39,040 nt of DNA from Chromatiales bacterium (GTDB lineage: Bacteria > Pseudomonadota > Gammaproteobacteria > Thiohalomonadales > Thiohalomonadaceae), in NCBI GenBank assembly GCA_029879245.1, contig JAOUQQ010000012.1, positions 1 through 39,040 on the forward strand, in the 5' to 3' direction. Below are positions 5,279 through 39,040 of the stretch, piece by piece. The translations under genes were made by a program, and so were the position numbers. The notes under the pieces were generated by a model, which saw only the letters and a list, made by a program, of their open reading frames with translations, was not told the origin of the DNA and searched no databases. The stretch's first letter is position 1, and each line of letters begins with the position of its first letter.

Positions 5279-5647
5279 ATGATTCAGATGCAGACACGAC
5301 TGGATGTGGCTGATAACAGCGGAGCCCGCGTTGTCCAGTGCATCAAGGTGCTTGGCGGTTCACATCGCCGTTACGCCGGTATTGGTGACATTATTAAGGT
5401 TAGCGTAAAAGAGGCTATCCCACGCGGTAAGGTCAAAAAAGGTGATGTCTACAACGCCGTTGTAGTTCGCACCCGTAAGGGTGTACGCCGCGCCGATGGT
5501 TCGCTGATCCGTTTTGACGGTAATGCGGCAGTGCTGTTGAACAATAAGCTGGAGCCGATCGGTACCCGTATCTTTGGTCCTGTGACCCGTGAGCTGCGTG
5601 GTGATCGCTTCATGAAGATCATTTCTCTGGCACCTGAAGTGCTGTAA
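5279..5647 (+). CDS. rplN: 50S ribosomal protein L14
   Basis: The true start is ATG 5279 (122 residues, '[17 protein letters not shown]'), preceded by CGGAGAG; upstream in-frame residues have no L14 homology. L14 lies at the subunit interface, contacts 16S helix 14 and is the docking site of the silencing factor RsfS. '[20 protein letters not shown]' is the family signature. It is the first gene of the spc operon. Confidence 0.97.
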
Positions 5648-5664
5648 GGCGAAGAGAGACTAAG

Positions 5665-5985
5665 ATGCGTAAGTTAAAGAAAGGTGACGAGGTAATCGTC
5701 CTTACCGGTAAAGATAAAGGTAAGCGTGGCACTATTAATCAGGTCATCATTGAGAATGATCGCGTGATTGTTGGTGGCATTAACATGGTGAAGAAGCACC
5801 AGAAGCCCAACCCAGCAATGGGTGCGCCTGGCGGTATCGTCGAGAAGGAGATGCCACTGCATCTCTCCAACGTTGCCATCTTTAACGCCGCTACTGGTAA
5901 GGCCGATCGTGTCGGTATCAAGACGCTTGAAGATGGACGCAAGGTGCGTATCTTCAAGTCCAATAACGAAGCAATTGATGCTTAA
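5665..5985 (+). CDS. rplX: 50S ribosomal protein L24
   Basis: The 106-residue protein begins with the KOW motif '[20 protein letters not shown]'. L24 is one of the first proteins to bind 23S rRNA and initiates 50S assembly. '[20 protein letters not shown]' and '[12 protein letters not shown]' are typical. It stands 17 bp after rplN and 14 bp before rplE. In E. coli the rplX-rplE region holds the S8 repressor site; I could not confirm one here by eye. Confidence 0.97.
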
Positions 5986-5999
5986 GTTGGGTTAAGAAG

Positions 6000-6539
6000 A
6001 TGGCTAGACTGCAAGATTTCTACCGCGATGAAGTGGTAAACAAGCTGAAAGAAGAGTTGAAGCTTGAGAACGTAATGGAGGTGCCGCGCATCACCAAGAT
6101 CACCCTGAATATGGGTGTGGGTGAGGCCGCCGCCGACAAGAAGGTGCTGGAGCACGCTGTGGCGGATCTGACCAAGATCGCCGGTCAGAAGCCGATCATC
6201 ACCAAGGCTCGCAAGTCGGTAGCTGGTTTCAAGATACGTGAGGGTTGGCCGATTGGTTGTAAGGTGACCCTGCGTCGTGAGCGTATGTATGAGTTTCTCG
6301 ATCGCCTGGTCAATGTTTCGATCCCGCGTATCCGTGATTTCCGTGGTTTGAGTGCCAAGTCTTTTGATGGTCGTGGTAACTACAGCATGGGCGTGAAGGA
6401 GCAGATCATCTTCCCCGAGATTGACTACGACAAGATCGACAAGCTGCGTGGACTGGATATTACCATTACCACCACCGCGAAGAATGATGACGAGGCCCGT
6501 GCACTGCTCCGGGCTTTCAACTTCCCGCTCAAAGGTTAA
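6000..6539 (+). CDS. rplE: 50S ribosomal protein L5
   Basis: At 179 residues it equals E. coli L5. '[19 protein letters not shown]' and '[20 protein letters not shown]' are family motifs. L5 binds 5S rRNA with L18 and L25 in the central protuberance and contacts S13 across the bridge. AAGAAG precedes the ATG. Confidence 0.97.
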
Positions 6540-6548
6540 GGAGTAGTC

Positions 6549-6854
6549 ATGGCTAAGGTATCTATGGTTGAGCGTGAGAAAAAGCGCGCCAAACTGGTCA
6601 AGAAGTATGCTGCCAAGCGCGCAGCTATTAAGACCCAGATGAAGAATCCTGAGTTGAGCATGGATGAACTTGAGGCACTGGTGGTTCAGCTGCAAAAGCT
6701 GCCACGTGACTCCAGTCCGGTACGCAAGCGTAACCGCTGTAACCTGACCGGTCGTCCTCACGGCTTTTATCGTAAATTCGGCCTTGGCCGTAACAAGCTG
6801 CGCGAAGCTGCAATGCGTGGTGATGTACCCGGCCTGCGTAAGGCAAGCTGGTAG
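6549..6854 (+). CDS. rpsN: 30S ribosomal protein S14 (zinc-independent type)
   Basis: The 101-residue length and '[20 protein letters not shown]' with '[19 protein letters not shown]' show the long, zinc-free (C-) S14 type. There is no CxxC pair; only one Cys is present. S14 completes the 30S head near S3 and S10. This contrasts with the zinc-ribbon S4 and L36 in the same window. Confidence 0.96.
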
Positions 6855-32117: not shown

Positions 32118-32606
32118 TTACCAGCAGCCGCCGGTACTCGTTGTTTCAGTACCCCCAGCATCTACAGCGTCATAAGACTTCTTTGCTCCGTCAGGGGCAT
32201 TAGCGCCAACCTCGATAACGAGACTCTTACACTTAGTATCTCCCGTCTGCTTACCAGTGCTGACTACGCTAGCAATTAGGGTATAGCCGGTATTACTCGC
32301 ACCAGTGATAGTAAGGTTGTACCACCCTTCGGGGCTGGTGCTACTTCCATTCACCCGTGTTGTCGCGGCATTCCCACGAACACAGTTGTTACCGGTACCA
32401 ATAGTTTGGGCGTAGACATTGCAGTTACCACGCAGCTTCTCCTGGGCCTGCTGAAGCGAAAGCAGAGCCGTCTTAGCGTCAGTTCGGCGCGATTTCAACA
32501 CATGATCCATGTAGTTTGGGTACGCGATACCTGCCAGAATCCCGATAATGGCAACGACAATCATTATCTCCATCAGGGTGAAACCACCATTGTGTTTGAT
32601 ATGCAT
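32118..32606 (-). CDS. Type IV pilin-like protein, PilE family
   Basis: With ATG 32606 this is a 162-residue prepilin: a short basic leader 'MHIKHNGG', cleavage before Phe9, Glu at mature position 5, and the hydrophobic helix 'FTLMEIMIVVAIIGILAGIA'. AGGAGG precedes the start. The C-terminal head has four Cys, two spaced in 'GNCNVYAQTIGTGNNC' and two in 'TKCKSL' and 'GGCW', so one or two disulfides are likely. It resembles PilE-type minor pilins next to fimT-pilW-pilX clusters. It is transcribed away from fimT. Confidence 0.88.
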   Translation of the reverse strand: MHIKHNGGFTLMEIMIVVAIIGILAGIAYPNYMDHVLKSRRTDAKTALLSLQQAQEKLRGNCNVYAQTIGTGNNCVRGNAATTRVNGSSTSPEGWYNLTITGASNTGYTLIASVVSTGKQTGDTKCKSLVIEVGANAPDGAKKSYDAVDAGGTETTSTGGCW

Positions 32607-32744
32607 TTTCGTGCGAGCCTCCTCTTTATGATTTTCGCTAGTTTGCATCATGATGTGCAGCAGGTCGAGGTGATATTTATCATTTCTAGAATTTAGGGCT
32701 GATGATGGTTCAATTCCGACAAATGGTTGAATCTGGGTAATGAG

Positions 32745-32819: not shown

Positions 32820-33371
32820 GTGCATAAGGTGAATGGTTTTACAATTATGGAACTGATGATTGCCGTATCTATTATCGGCATCATCGCTATGATTGCGGTG
32901 CCTAATATGCGCGCCTATATGGACAAGCATCGGGTCATCAGTGCAGCAGAGGCGATTTATCAACAGCTCATCTACGCTCGATCTGAGGCGATATCTCGCT
33001 CACAGAATGTCGTGGTGAGGGGCGCGGTTGGGGCTGACACCTCAAACTGGGCGGTTGGCGTTAGCACCAACACGAGCTGTAATCCGACACTAACAGATGC
33101 CTCTACTGCAAGCGCCTGTGTGCTGGATGTTGGGGGCACTAACGTATTAAAACGCATTGCCAGTACGGAGTACCCCGGTGTAACGCTCAATGATGCCCCC
33201 GGTCTCTTTACCGTTACCTTTGACCCTACCCGCGGCACGATTGCAGTGGGCGAGAATGGCACCGCCTACGTACGCTATGGCAACTATGAATTGCGGGTCA
33301 TAGTTAGTGTTATTGGGCGGGCAAGGATCTGCGCCGGAGGTAGTGGTGTAAGGGGGTATTCACCGTGCTAA
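32820..33371 (+). CDS. fimT: Minor pilin FimT/GspH family
   Basis: This 183-residue prepilin starts with GTG 32820 after AAGGGG. The leader is only six residues ('MHKVNG'), cleavage is before Phe7, Glu lies at mature +5, and the helix is 'FTIMELMIAVSIIGIIAMIA'. 'AAEAIYQQLIYARSEAISRS' is the FimT/GspH signature after the helix. The C-terminal beta region ends 'GRARICAGGSGVRGYSPC'. FimT-type minor pilins prime type IV pilus assembly and can bind DNA in some species. Its stop overlaps the pilW start. Confidence 0.9.
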   Translation: MHKVNGFTIMELMIAVSIIGIIAMIAVPNMRAYMDKHRVISAAEAIYQQLIYARSEAISRSQNVVVRGAVGADTSNWAVGVSTNTSCNPTLTDASTASACVLDVGGTNVLKRIASTEYPGVTLNDAPGLFTVTFDPTRGTIAVGENGTAYVRYGNYELRVIVSVIGRARICAGGSGVRGYSPC

Positions 33372-34276
33372 TTCAACCCATAAAGCTGCAGCGAGGGGTG
33401 ACACTCGTTGAATTGATGATCGGTCTGGCGGTCGGCCTTATTGTCGTTGGTGCGGTGCTAAGCGTCTATTTGACTACCGTTAACACAAGTGGTGAAACCC
33501 TCAAATCCAGCCGCCTTAATCAGCAGGTTTCGGCCATTATGAACGTCATATCCAATGACATACGACGCGCAGGGTATGCCGAAGCTACCCCCTCTTTTGG
33601 TGGGTATGACTGGGATGATCCTGGTGACCTGGATGTCAATGACCTGGACAATATTGAGGAGCCCTCCACCAATCCCTTCAATCAGCCGGGTAGTACGGCG
33701 CTGGAGGTACACGATACGATGGCCTCCGACAGCGACGTGGGATCTTTGGGCTGGGGTGAGTGCATCCTCTATGCCTATGACGCCAGCAAGGGTGATGCGG
33801 ATGATGATGGGACTCCCGGCCCAGACGGTGACGTTAATACTGATGGTTTTCGCATAATGGAAAACAACGAATATTTTGGTTTTCGCAAGAACGGCACCAA
33901 CATTGATATGCGTAAGAGTATCGATTATGCCGCGGGTGATACACCAAATTCATGCGCCTCTGCCGGCAGTGGTAGTTGGGAGGCGATGAACGATCCGACG
34001 ATTGAGATCACCACTCTGGAGTTTAATCTGCGAGGCTCCAGCTGCGTCAATACTCAGGAGCCCGACAAGCTCGATAGCGATGGTGATGGCACTATTGATG
34101 ACCTGGATGAGAGCGACTGTTATACGCATGTGCCAGCAGTAGGTAGCGGCATCAACACGGTAGAGAGGCGGGATGTGGAGATTACCATCGGGGCCAGACT
34201 AGCCGGTGATCCCGAGGTAAAGATATCAGTGACTCAACATGTTTCGGTACGTAACGATCTGGTACGTCTGCGTTGA
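33365..34276 (+). CDS. pilW: Minor pilin PilW family
   Basis: The 303-residue protein starts at GTG 33365, overlapping fimT by 7 bp. The leader ends 'LQRG', cleavage is before Val12, Glu16 is the +5 Glu, and the helix 'VTLVELMIGLAVGLIVVGAV' follows. 'LNQQVSAIMNVISNDIRRAG' is the PilW signature. The head domain carries three DxD/NxDG loops (residues 144-152, 156-164 and 237-248, 'DSDGDGTIDDLD'), which look like calcium sites. PilW forms part of the pilus-tip priming complex with PilV and PilX. Confidence 0.88.
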   Translation: MLIQPIKLQRGVTLVELMIGLAVGLIVVGAVLSVYLTTVNTSGETLKSSRLNQQVSAIMNVISNDIRRAGYAEATPSFGGYDWDDPGDLDVNDLDNIEEPSTNPFNQPGSTALEVHDTMASDSDVGSLGWGECILYAYDASKGDADDDGTPGPDGDVNTDGFRIMENNEYFGFRKNGTNIDMRKSIDYAAGDTPNSCASAGSGSWEAMNDPTIEITTLEFNLRGSSCVNTQEPDKLDSDGDGTIDDLDESDCYTHVPAVGSGINTVERRDVEITIGARLAGDPEVKISVTQHVSVRNDLVRLR

Positions 34277-34302: not shown

Positions 34303-35511
34303 ATGAATAGAGAAAGAATAGGTGCCTGGCAGCGGCAACGTGGTGTGGCGACGCTGCTGATCTCGCTGATCCTGCTGGTGGTTATCACCTTTGTAACCCT
34401 CTACACCTCACGTAGCGTGCTACTGGAACAGAAGATATCCACTAATGAGTTTCGCGGTCGTATGGCATTTGAGGCGGCTGAGGCGGGTTCAGACGCGGCC
34501 ATCGCAGCGATCTCTTCAGGCTGGACTATGGCGGATGACGATACAAGACTTCCGGCAGATCAAAATGTTTATCCAGATTGTCTGCCAACGGCCGAGTATA
34601 ACGTGATTTTTGATATTAATGGTGACGGTACTCCCGATGCCAACGCCAAGACACTGGATAATGGAAGTACGGTGGCGGTTACCATGACCTGTAGTGTCAA
34701 TCAGAGTCTGATTAGTTACGATATTACCTCGGTGGGTAACAGTGATGACAATACAGCGAAGAGAACTATTAATCAGACCCTGATAATTATCCCGCCACTG
34801 CCCAATACCCCGGATAACCCGCTACTTACCCGCGGTGGTGTAGTTATAGGCGGTTCGGCCACGGTGTCTAATCCCGAAGGGAACTCAACTATCTGGTCGG
34901 GGGGAGACGTGAATGTAGGTTCCAATAACTCTACCTCTACTCAAATTGCCAACCCCACACATCCCAACTATCCGAACTGTCTGGGGGGCTCTGTTCAGTG
35001 TCTGGAGAATATGGTTCCCTCATCATCTCGTGATGTAACTGGCGTTGATGTTATTGAAAATGACACCTCACTGGGAAACCTGACTACGGATCAGTTTTTC
35101 TTCAACTTCTTTGGCACGACACCGGAGATTTACCGCGAGAGTCGCGTCACTCTGGAGACGACAGGGGGGCAGCTCGACACATTATCTGGCACAACCGGCG
35201 AGGTAATGTGGGTAGATGGCACTGTTAACATTTCTGGTAACAACACCTTCGGTAGCCCCACCAAGCCCGTAATTATGGTTATTGATGGTGACTTTGACGC
35301 CTCGGGAAATATCACCATTTACGGCCTGTTGTTTGTGATCGGTTCAATAACCGGTACCGGTTCGGTGGATATCACAGGATCAGCGGTTGTCAACGGTATT
35401 AATAGTGGTGGTGGTGGTAGTCTCGACGTGGTCTATAACAGCCGGGTTCTTAAATCGACTTTTTCCTATGGACGCCCCGCTGCCGGTTCGGGTACGTGGC
35501 GTGACTTTTGA
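34303..35511 (+). CDS. pilX: PilX-like minor pilin with beta-solenoid C-terminus
   Basis: The 402-residue protein begins 'MNRERIGAWQRQRGVATLLI'; cleavage would be after Gly14, and there is no Glu at +5, as in GspK/PilX-type pilins. 'EFRGRMAFEAAEAGSDAAIA' is the PilX signature. Usual PilX proteins are about half this length. The extra part (about 175-370) has Gly/Val/Asn repeats such as 'VDGTVNISGNNTFGSP' and 'DASGNITIYGLLFVIGSITG', suggestive of a parallel beta-helix. 'DINGDGTPD' (104-112) is a calcium-loop candidate. GGGGAGAGG lies upstream. Confidence 0.85.
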   Translation: MNRERIGAWQRQRGVATLLISLILLVVITFVTLYTSRSVLLEQKISTNEFRGRMAFEAAEAGSDAAIAAISSGWTMADDDTRLPADQNVYPDCLPTAEYNVIFDINGDGTPDANAKTLDNGSTVAVTMTCSVNQSLISYDITSVGNSDDNTAKRTINQTLIIIPPLPNTPDNPLLTRGGVVIGGSATVSNPEGNSTIWSGGDVNVGSNNSTSTQIANPTHPNYPNCLGGSVQCLENMVPSSSRDVTGVDVIENDTSLGNLTTDQFFFNFFGTTPEIYRESRVTLETTGGQLDTLSGTTGEVMWVDGTVNISGNNTFGSPTKPVIMVIDGDFDASGNITIYGLLFVIGSITGTGSVDITGSAVVNGINSGGGGSLDVVYNSRVLKSTFSYGRPAAGSGTWRDF

Positions 35512-35546: not shown

Positions 35547-38500
35547 ATGTATAAGCGAAGCGTAGTTTATTCTAGTGAACAACGTGGTTTTACCCTGATT
35601 GAGGCGCTGATAGCCGTGCTCGTGCTTTCGTTCGGGTTACTGGCAATTGGTACCTTCCAGGCCAAGCTGGTTGCCGGTAGCGCCTATAACAAGGCGCGGG
35701 CCGAGGCAGTGGCGTTGGCACAGGATAAGCTGGATGAGATACGCAGTTATACCACCGAACACGGTATCGTTGAGAAGCTGACCAATACGTCGGTAGCCGA
35801 TCCGGCACTGGGTGCTGAATATACCTACCCTGCCGATGTCCCCGCCGGTCTGACTGATTATCCGGTTACGCCAGAAACTATTGAGGGCACTAATGCCAGC
35901 TTCCAGCGTGTGTGGAGTATTAACCATGTTGGTGAGACAAACATAGCGGTAGTGACCGTTAGCTGGACTGATCGTGAGGGTACGCAGAATGTCTCTTTAG
36001 AGACGCAGATTGCATGGCGTAATCCCCGCGGTTCGGCAGATTTGTCGGCAAGTACCAAACCACTGGTGGAGTCACCTACTGGTAAGGCCTATCTGGGTGA
36101 TGGCAGCCTTGATCAGACGGCAATGGATCAGTTCAAGGCCGATAATCCCAATAGCAACAATAACGATGGCACGTATACGGGTGACCACGATAAGGATGGC
36201 GATCTTGAGCTGATTGTGGAGACTAGTACAGGTGGTGAGGTTGTGCTGACTCTGCCAAAGGCGTGCAAGCTAGTAGATAAATTTGGTAATCCAATCTGTA
36301 CCGATTTTGTAAAAATTAGCGGGACAGTCTATTTCGACAGAACCGGTGGCTCCACCTTGAAGGGCAAGGATATCTGGGTTCTCGCCTCTGATGCGGCCTA
36401 TTGCTCACGTTGGGCTCCGGTCTCGGCCACCCCTGCCAAACTGACCACTACGTTGGATCTTACTACCTTGCCCGGAACGGATGGTAAGATTTGGCGTGAC
36501 AACAATGCTGTGGTTGACTTTGTCGGCAACGAGAATAATATCTCTGATTACGACTACTTTAACTATACCTGCTATCTGGGTGGTGGCTGGTACGGTAATA
36601 TCGGTCTGGTTATGCTTGGCGCCAACAATCAGGATTTTGCCTGCGTGGGCGACCCCAATGCAGGTACCCTTGAGGCATGGAAGCATGTTGAACTGGCCAA
36701 GCGCCGTGGCTATCGTGGGGCTTTGCATCAGTACACTGTTGATGCGAATGGTGATCATGTTGAGGTACAGGTAGGTGGCCAGACGGTTTACTACTCCATC
36801 GGGGTTAAGGATGCCATCAAGCTGCCGGATGTAAACTGGGCAGAGCGTAAGTATGGCCACGACTTTGTTATCTCCCGCGGTAATAACCCGACCACCACTG
36901 ACTGTCTAACAGTGCTTTCCCGCCCTGATAGCGATCCCGATGCCAGCACTGTGACGGCAAATCTATTTCACAGTGTGCCGGGCGACTTTATTTGCCTTAA
37001 TGAAGATGCGAATGACCCGCCTGAGGGAACCGCTCCGCGGGTCGGTGCCTATGCCAAATTTGTCAGTTATCCCTGGGACTATCTTAACCAGTTTGATGAG
37101 ACGATTTACGATGTAAAAAGCGGTTGTGACTATGATCCATCGGATCCCCCCTCATTCCGTTACACCATTACCGGTATACTGGATATGGATTCGGCCACCG
37201 AACACACCTGGGGTAGTGCGAATCCTGCTAACGGTACCTTTGGTGGGAACATCAATACCTCAGATGGCTTTGACAACTGCTCTATTCTCAGTACCACTGC
37301 AGGTGATGGTAACGACATCTCCTACAGCTGCAACTACTTTGTCTGGGAGGATCAGAAGCAGGTACAAACGCCGTGGAACGGTAGTGTTGTAGTCAATGCG
37401 CCGTATGATGTGGTCTGTGTCCCGAGCACGCCAGACTACACCTATGTACAGGCGAACCTGAGCGCCGAGGCTGTGTACGACATTACTTCAGCACTGGGTG
37501 CGCAAACGGCTAACTTTACCTGCCATGACCTGACCAAGTTCAATGTTACCGGCAATATCACCGTCGATGCGGGCAATGATTTGAAAACAGTAGGCGGGCT
37601 GGATATCAGGGCTTACGATCAGAATGGTGACCCAATTGGCCTATGTGTTGCGACGCCCTCTCCGCTGAGTGCGACATACAAGTGTAGTGGTTTGATGGAG
37701 GACACCTTTACCTCGGGCTTTACCGGCCGGGTAGAGCTGCTTGTGCCCACTGATTATCGGTGTACCAGTGCCACCACCATTAATGCCACCTCGGCTACCT
37801 GTGGTACAAGTGTGGTGACCTGGAGCTTTACCAACCTCGTGGTTGACCCAAACACCAGTAGTAACAATAACGTGGTCTTTGATGGTCCGAAGGATGTCTA
37901 CACCATTGCGGGTACCGTAAGAAATGCTACCAGCCCGGCGCAGGACATTCTCACCGGTATGGTGATCTCAACGTCAGATGGCGGGTGTAGCTCCATGGGG
38001 CTTGCAGCAAACGGTATCGATGTTGAATACACCTGTCAGGTCACCCATGACACCACACTAACTGCCAGCTGGGTAGGTTCGGTGATTGTTAACCCGCCCA
38101 CTGGATTCTGGTGTGGCGTCGATTCAAAGGGAACAGAGATCTCGCTGTCAATCCCTGCTGACACCACAGCTACGGTAACAGCCGCCTCCGCGACATGTGT
38201 GGTCGATACCAGTGGCCCGGTTGTTGTCGATGGCAGTGTCTATGTGCCAACGCCATACCGCAATATCGTAAAATATGACGAGACGGTGGGTGCAGGTAAC
38301 GGCGATTATGCCGATATCTATACCCTTCTGGGTTATACCAGTGCCGACTTCACGGGTGACTACGTGATGAAGTTTAACTCTACCCCGGGAACGGGTGATT
38401 ACACTGCAGTCGACTTTGAGTTTGTCGGGCTGGGTAGCGGTGATTACCGGGACAAATATACCCTGATCGGCCACACCAGTGCCGACTACACGGGCGACTA

Positions 38501-39040
38501 CGTGATGCAGTTTAACTCTACCCCGGGTACCGGTAACTACGACGGGGTCGACTTTGAGTTTGTCGGGCTGGGTAAGGGTGACTACAGGGATCTCTACACC
38601 CTGATCGGCAACACCAGTGCCGACTACACGGGCGACTACGTGATGAAGTTTACCTCCACCCCGGCTGCGGGTGATTATGATGCGGTCGACTTTGAGTTTG
38701 TCGGGCTGGGTAGCGGTGATTACCGGGACATATACACCCTGATCGGCAACACCAGTGCCGACTACACGGGCGACTACGTGATGAAGTTTAACTCCACCCC
38801 GGGTACCGGTGACTATGATGGGGTCGACTTTGAGTTTGTCGGGATGGGTACCGGTGATTACCGGGACAAATACACCCTGATCGGCAACACCAGTGCCGAC
38901 TACACGGGCGACTACGTGATGAAGTTTACCTCCACCCCGGCTGCGGGTGATTATGATGCGGTCGACTTTGAGTTTGTCGGGCTGGGTAGCGGTGATTACC
39001 GGGACATATACACCCTGATCGGCAACACCAGTGGCGACTA
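35547..39040 (+). CDS. Giant PilV-like minor pilin with C-terminal tandem repeats (partial)
   Basis: The frame is open from ATG 35547 (AAGGAG upstream) to the window edge: at least 1164 codons, no stop. The N-terminus is a prepilin ('QRGFTLIEALIAVLVLSFGL', Glu at +5) followed by a PilV-like 'ALAQDKLDEIRSY'. PilV proteins are normally under about 250 residues. 'DHDKDGDLE' (213-221) is a calcium-loop candidate. Residues about 255-900 hold divergent beta-rich segments with paired Cys, the clearest starting near 537, 664 and 783. From residue 919 an exact 46-residue tandem array runs to the edge. It is the fourth gene of the fimT-pilW-pilX series. Likely role: pilus-tip adhesin (inference). Confidence 0.85.
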   Translation, partial: MYKRSVVYSSEQRGFTLIEALIAVLVLSFGLLAIGTFQAKLVAGSAYNKARAEAVALAQDKLDEIRSYTTEHGIVEKLTNTSVADPALGAEYTYPADVPAGLTDYPVTPETIEGTNASFQRVWSINHVGETNIAVVTVSWTDREGTQNVSLETQIAWRNPRGSADLSASTKPLVESPTGKAYLGDGSLDQTAMDQFKADNPNSNNNDGTYTGDHDKDGDLELIVETSTGGEVVLTLPKACKLVDKFGNPICTDFVKISGTVYFDRTGGSTLKGKDIWVLASDAAYCSRWAPVSATPAKLTTTLDLTTLPGTDGKIWRDNNAVVDFVGNENNISDYDYFNYTCYLGGGWYGNIGLVMLGANNQDFACVGDPNAGTLEAWKHVELAKRRGYRGALHQYTVDANGDHVEVQVGGQTVYYSIGVKDAIKLPDVNWAERKYGHDFVISRGNNPTTTDCLTVLSRPDSDPDASTVTANLFHSVPGDFICLNEDANDPPEGTAPRVGAYAKFVSYPWDYLNQFDETIYDVKSGCDYDPSDPPSFRYTITGILDMDSATEHTWGSANPANGTFGGNINTSDGFDNCSILSTTAGDGNDISYSCNYFVWEDQKQVQTPWNGSVVVNAPYDVVCVPSTPDYTYVQANLSAEAVYDITSALGAQTANFTCHDLTKFNVTGNITVDAGNDLKTVGGLDIRAYDQNGDPIGLCVATPSPLSATYKCSGLMEDTFTSGFTGRVELLVPTDYRCTSATTINATSATCGTSVVTWSFTNLVVDPNTSSNNNVVFDGPKDVYTIAGTVRNATSPAQDILTGMVISTSDGGCSSMGLAANGIDVEYTCQVTHDTTLTASWVGSVIVNPPTGFWCGVDSKGTEISLSIPADTTATVTAASATCVVDTSGPVVVDGSVYVPTPYRNIVKYDETVGAGNGDYADIYTLLGYTSADFTGDYVMKFNSTPGTGDYTAVDFEFVGLGSGDYRDKYTLIGHTSADYTGDYVMQFNSTPGTGNYDGVDFEFVGLGKGDYRDLYTLIGNTSADYTGDYVMKFTSTPAAGDYDAVDFEFVGLGSGDYRDIYTLIGNTSADYTGDYVMKFNSTPGTGDYDGVDFEFVGMGTGDYRDKYTLIGNTSADYTGDYVMKFTSTPAAGDYDAVDFEFVGLGSGDYRDIYTLIGNTSGD
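38301..39040 (+). repeat. In-frame 138-bp tandem repeats in the giant pilin gene
   Basis: Copies begin at 38301, 38439, 38577, 38715, 38853 and 38991 (last cut at the edge), every 138 bp exactly, giving 46-residue units. A typical unit runs from 'GDYRDKYTLIGNTSADYTGD' through 'YVMKFNSTPGTGDYDGVDFE' to 'FVGLGS'. The first copy is most diverged. Copies 3 and 5 share 'FTSTPAAGDYDAVDFEF', copies 2 and 4 share 'FNSTPGTG', so the recent unit of expansion is 276 bp. Units have no Cys and are rich in Asp and Tyr. Confidence 0.97.

Follow-up and report, generated by a model that had tools for sequence, protein, structure and literature searches.

The window analyzed here, a 39040-base stretch that is the entire contig C103 and whose end is also the contig end, closes with the gene of a very large pilin at the end of a minor-pilin operon. 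The encoded protein, referred to here as giant PilV, is rather likely a type IVa tip-complex PilV (I-subunit) that has been enlarged into a modular pilin and takes the place of PilY1 as tip adhesin. It belongs to an uncharacterised, conserved family; the grafting of modules onto pilins is itself established. The source genome is a 2.7-Mb assembly of 197 contigs, 98% complete. The features of the operon and of the giant protein are as follows (evidence in brackets).

32118..32651, minus strand: divergent type IV pilin, PilE/ComP-like, 177 aa (Pfam ComP_DUS 9.5e-19 and N_methyl)
32820..33371, plus strand: FimT/FimU (H-subunit) minor pilin, 183 aa (Pfam GspH 1.6e-10)
33365..34276, plus strand: PilW (J-subunit) minor pilin, 303 aa (N_methyl)
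34303..35511, plus strand: PilX (K-subunit) minor pilin, 402 aa (Pfam PilX_N 4.6e-9)
35547..39040, plus strand: giant modular pilin in the PilV slot, open at its 3' end at the contig end
35547..35588, plus strand: class III leader peptide, 14 aa, predicted cleavage after Gly14 (leader sequence; N_methyl over cut-off)
35589..36014, plus strand: pilin module, residues 15-156, alpha1 helix and four-stranded sheet (AlphaFold model; TIGR02523)
36072..37016, plus strand: conserved core ectodomain, residues 176-490, about 300 aa (alignment A4; AlphaFold model)
37155..38261, plus strand: three predicted Ig-like cysteine modules, residues about 510/537-905, 12 cysteines (colinearity with a relative; cysteine positions; predicted strands)
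38301..39038, plus strand: 46-aa (138-bp) tandem repeats, cysteine-free and acidic, residues 919-1164 (repeat finding)

The giant frame starts with ATG and continues for 1164 codons without a stop (35547..39038), with a chance of about 1e-23 for such a stop-free run, estimated at the local base composition. Its N-terminus, MYKRSVVYSSEQRG followed by FTLIEA, is a canonical class III prepilin leader with G-1, F1, and E5, and the sequence across the predicted cleavage site reads MYKRSVVYSSEQRG/FTLIEALIAVLVLSFGLLAIG. The Pfam N_methyl domain scores 26 bits (cut-off 21.2). A preliminary description of this DNA had claimed a prepilin signal at the start of a frame of at least 1164 codons that runs past the window, and both elements were confirmed. 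No Rfam match was found in the region.

The pilin module is followed by a large ectodomain. In an AlphaFold model (28 sequences), a helix (residues 13-72) and sheet strands (residues 110-156) are connected by a low-confidence linker (residues 158-175) to a well-predicted beta-rich core, which precedes the Ig-like modules. The mean pLDDT is 63 over 918 residues and the far modules are therefore not reliable. Modelled alone, the core reached a pLDDT of 81 and a pTM of 0.82. Its fold had no significant match in the PDB and viral structure libraries (best E-values 0.17 and 0.2), no Pfam family covers it, and no relatives were found in viral contigs. By these structure comparisons, the core domain is possibly a new fold. 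Only N_methyl reaches its Pfam cut-off in the giant pilin and no known adhesin domain was found in that search. The predicted fold suggests that the subsequent modules are Ig-like. Foldseek matches of the 918-aa model to antibody chains (best E-value 2e-3) had a query-normalised TM-score below 0.1 and were not significant, and a geopilin match in a PDB profile search (E-value 0.06) covered the generic pilin helix only. The preliminary description spoke of a very large repeat ectodomain; it is indeed large but mostly non-repetitive, with repeats only in residues 919-1164.

The genes for FimT, PilW, and PilX lie co-directionally 5' of the giant pilin gene, spaced by an overlap (PilW with FimT) or by gaps of at most 35 bases. 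PilW matches the PpdB model with an E-value of 1.5e-8, which is under the cut-off of that model. In the resulting order FimT-PilW-PilX-PilV, the position of the I-subunit gene is held by the giant pilin, in agreement with the earlier comparison to PilV-type minor pilins. The best family for its pilin part is TIGR02523 PilV (E-value 2.7e-11, residues 12-84 only), the equivalog threshold of which is missed (44.1 bits versus the curated 52.2). The protein thus occupies the PilV slot without formally passing as a PilV equivalog; compared to the 139 positions of the family model, the giant ectodomain is added. The same gene order (fimT-pilW-pilX-pilV) occurs in the core tip-complex operon of the Vibrio cholerae competence pilus, for which models stack PilX above PilV, PilW, and FimT, with PilV directly under PilX (PMC13249403; PMC12040237). 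Like the giant PilV, V. cholerae PilV (VC0861) is the last of these four genes and a core tip-complex subunit, and it is accompanied by a PilX without Glu5. The window PilX (RGVATLLI) lacks Glu5, a residue present in FimT, PilW, and the giant PilV, and PilX is therefore likely the cap subunit. The C-terminal half of PilX resembles a beta-solenoid of short repeats.

We propose that a prepilin peptidase would cleave the class III leader and that the giant protein would enter the priming complex as its PilV subunit, which would bring it to the pilus tip. By analogy with the V. cholerae and Myxococcus xanthus models, the pilin helix would pack against FimT and PilW immediately beneath the PilX cap, so that the ectodomain would project from the tip. 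The core or a terminal domain may be the binding part, the acidic repeats would act as a spacer of variable length, and the giant PilV would replace PilY1 as tip adhesin in the source genome, in which no PilY1 was found. Adhesion and pilus assembly are proposed here from knowledge of the family, and the tip position from published models of other species.

The shared operon order with V. cholerae (PMC13249403) also suits a competence pilus, in which the giant PilV would belong to a tip that captures DNA and would not be an adhesin, and the window FimT carries GRAR (residues 166-169), corresponding to the DNA-binding motif G-[RK]-x-[RK]. However, among 24 FimT proteins from related operons only 4 have this motif, which was thus rejected as a feature of giant-PilV operons. 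In addition, the ectodomain is strongly acidic (net charge of -18 for the core, -24 for the Ig-like modules, and -29 for the repeats), which makes DNA binding by the ectodomain itself unlikely. We regard a competence function as improbable, though it is the best placed of the alternatives to an adhesive PilV.

The preliminary description presented an adhesive part built onto the pilin as an unusual design. This does not hold as a novelty, since modular pilins with grafted adhesive modules have been published, namely PilB and PilC of Streptococcus sanguinis (PMC8179133; PMC9934059). These tip-located minor pilins share with the giant PilV a class III leader and a pilin module followed by extra modules, and PilC also has an Ig-like module. 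Their extra modules are vWA or lectin domains in proteins of about 450-500 aa in all (PMC8179133; PMC9934059), whereas the giant PilV combines a core of unrecognised fold, several cysteine modules, and repeat arrays, and is encoded in the FimT-PilW-PilX-PilV operon of a diderm bacterium. A 2021 survey covered more than 1200 proteins, the most extreme multi-domain example having 860 residues, and its authors expected further modular pilins with undefined modules (PMC8179133). With a length of at least 1164 residues, and probably of 1597 or more, the giant PilV exceeds the largest modular pilin of that survey, and because of its new modules, its core-complex PilV slot, and this exceptional length the family represents such an expected case. 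PilY1/PilC adhesins resemble it in the proposed role, as large tip-exposed proteins displayed by a minor-pilin complex, but PilY1 is not a pilin and contains PF05567, while the giant PilV is a pilin.

CofB and TcpB of type IVb pili and ComZ of Thermus thermophilus are likewise large minor pilins with additional beta domains that are thought to be tip-located, although they belong to different pilus classes or have different insertion sites and gave no sequence match to the giant PilV. Since CofB and TcpB have secreted partners (PMC8179133), the giant PilV could similarly present a separate secreted protein as an adaptor at the tip, in the style of CofB-CofJ, without being the adhesin itself; at one related locus (L090), the gene is adjoined by a gene for a secreted-looking protein of 1106 aa. 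Yet there is no conserved secreted neighbour: a PilE-like pilin gene comes next at about half of the loci, and elsewhere the following gene is unrelated. A PDB search of the giant pilin gave no sequence match to CofB or TcpB. An adaptor appears slightly less probable still than a competence tip.

The source genome encodes type IV pilus motor ATPases (five PF00437 matches), as well as PilS-, PilR-, and PilA-like genes recognised by inspection on another contig (C100). After the PilS- and PilR-like genes (locus L092, G000:C100, about 5618-6560), we observed a short helix-only pilin (MKKMQKGFTLIELM..., less than 65 aa) together with another short pilin and a secreted globular protein bearing a Sec-type signal. 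This set is an apparent split major pilin in a gammaproteobacterium, with stick and head as separate proteins. Split major pilins occur in Geobacter. At a further locus of the same genome (L063, G000:C8, 6307-12284), the genes of an MSHA-like pilin cluster flank one for a secreted-looking protein of 1071 aa. GspI and PilV have a common fold and position, and one relative has a weak GspI match, both of which would fit a gene serving a type II secretion-like pseudopilus. We consider this very unlikely, as contig C97 has its own cluster of four pseudopilin genes together with a GspE-type ATPase, and the window operon has PilX_N, pilin-type neighbours, and an adjoining pilE-like gene.

The window ends within the repeat array, of which it holds about 5.1-5.3 copies of 138 bp with 89% matches. 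Assemblies often break in tandem repeats. A search of 369 gammaproteobacterial genomes revealed the 46-aa repeat in none besides the source genome, and a relative of the same genus lacks it; by these sequence comparisons, the very long repeats are particular to the source genome. The repeat unit had no convincing relative in PDB, Pfam, PHROGs, phages, plasmids, and viral contigs, and PHROGs matches were discarded because they were whole-sequence sums with no single stretch passing. Opposite the repeats lies a 296-aa open frame (38148-39038, minus strand), a by-product of a repeat period (138 bp) that is divisible by three.

Contig C100 ends in a 433-aa frame that is open at its 5' end and very probably continues the giant pilin. 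This frame contains five 54-aa repeats, similar in style to the 46-aa repeats (BLASTP 1e-7), and a terminal domain with four cysteines. Its residues 321-398 match residues 832-898 of the closest relative (G001), the C-terminus of a complete protein, with an E-value of 9e-8, and residues 14-903 of the window protein match residues 13-795 of the same relative colinearly and in one piece (34% identity). The C100 frame is followed by ThiO and then Fur; Fur (66% identity) also directly follows the giant-pilin gene in G001, and ThiO and Fur adjoin the operon in four other genomes (G016, G002, G011, and G053). The 54-aa repeats, the C-terminal match, and the ThiO/Fur neighbourhood together argue for the continuation, from which we infer the C103-C100 join. 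The stop codon and next genes sought beyond the window are thus very probably found, with the join itself deduced. On this comparison, the repeats were very probably inserted after the third and before the last Ig-like module, and the joined protein would probably comprise 1597 aa or more, a stretch between C103 and C100 being unassembled.

A core-domain scan (one genome per species) retrieved 28 loci. Cultured isolates, among them Thalassotalea, Colwellia, Microbulbifer, Marinobacterium, and Cupriavidus, account for many of these, and metagenome-assembled genomes for others. All 28 encode the pilin, the core of about 300 aa, and the Ig-like modules in a single frame of 526-962 aa, most with 16 cysteines, which suits a secreted, disulfide-bonded protein. 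A PilX gene, nearly always encoding 383-447 aa, is directly upstream in all of them, so that this PilX is always paired with the giant PilV, and the order FimT-PilW-PilX was recognised in 21. An InlB-like repeat domain is present in three. This one-frame fusion, taken with further loci from the family of the window, excludes an assembly join and upholds the view of pilin and ectodomain as one protein. That close homologues might have separate pilin and repeat proteins was borne out in part at one locus: whereas the relatives are fused, the gene in a finished genome (G053, L055, 4852-7571) is interrupted between core and Ig-like modules by about 230 bp of foreign-looking sequence carrying a stop. 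Directly behind this interrupted gene lies another minor-pilin operon, which is complete and includes PilY1. The contig break within the repeat and the repeat-free relative of the same genus might suggest that faulty assembly or binning fused a pilin to an unrelated repeat protein, but this is the least probable of all readings given the 28 fused loci, the unbroken G001 alignment, and the start of the repeats in frame after the third Ig-like module inside the contig.

Other loci show variation in this operon. Thalassotalea (L066 and L068) has a tandem duplication of the FimT-PilW-PilX-giant PilV operon. Three loci (L058, L060, and L061) encode, in the giant-PilV slot, PilV proteins whose ectodomains differ (276, 630, and 704 aa); a cysteine-rich C-terminal module common to L058 and L060, seen by eye, suggests module swapping.

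No PilY1 (PF05567) was found in the source genome assembly (G000) or in three other genomes (G007, G016, and G006), and the giant pilin itself has no PF05567 match. The giant PilV may thus be the only tip adhesin of the source genome as judged by domain searches, although an assembly gap could account for the absence of PilY1 among 197 contigs. Six genomes (G001, G002, G005, G009, G053, and G055) have PilY1 alongside the giant PilV or one of its relatives. Because several relatives hold both, the giant PilV is not simply or generally a PilY1 substitute, and mutual exclusion was ruled out, as most holders also have PilY1. At the genus level, the core domain is present in 6 and PilY1 in 163 of 271 gammaproteobacterial genera. 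It is conceivable, if doubtful, that long PilX proteins (about 400 aa) and giant PilV proteins with a core of new fold define a distinct PilY1-independent class of type IVa pilus tip, in which an adhesive fibre is grown on the core PilV by insertion of modules and repeats.

The core PilV is normally regarded as a small assembly-priming subunit. A conserved PilV with hundreds to more than 1000 extra residues would mean that the priming complex itself could be an adhesin without PilY1, and that tandem repeats could lengthen a tip protein within a single genus. No Pfam model exists for the family; its presence in the culturable marine genera Microbulbifer, Thalassotalea, Colwellia, and Marinobacterium makes it directly testable.
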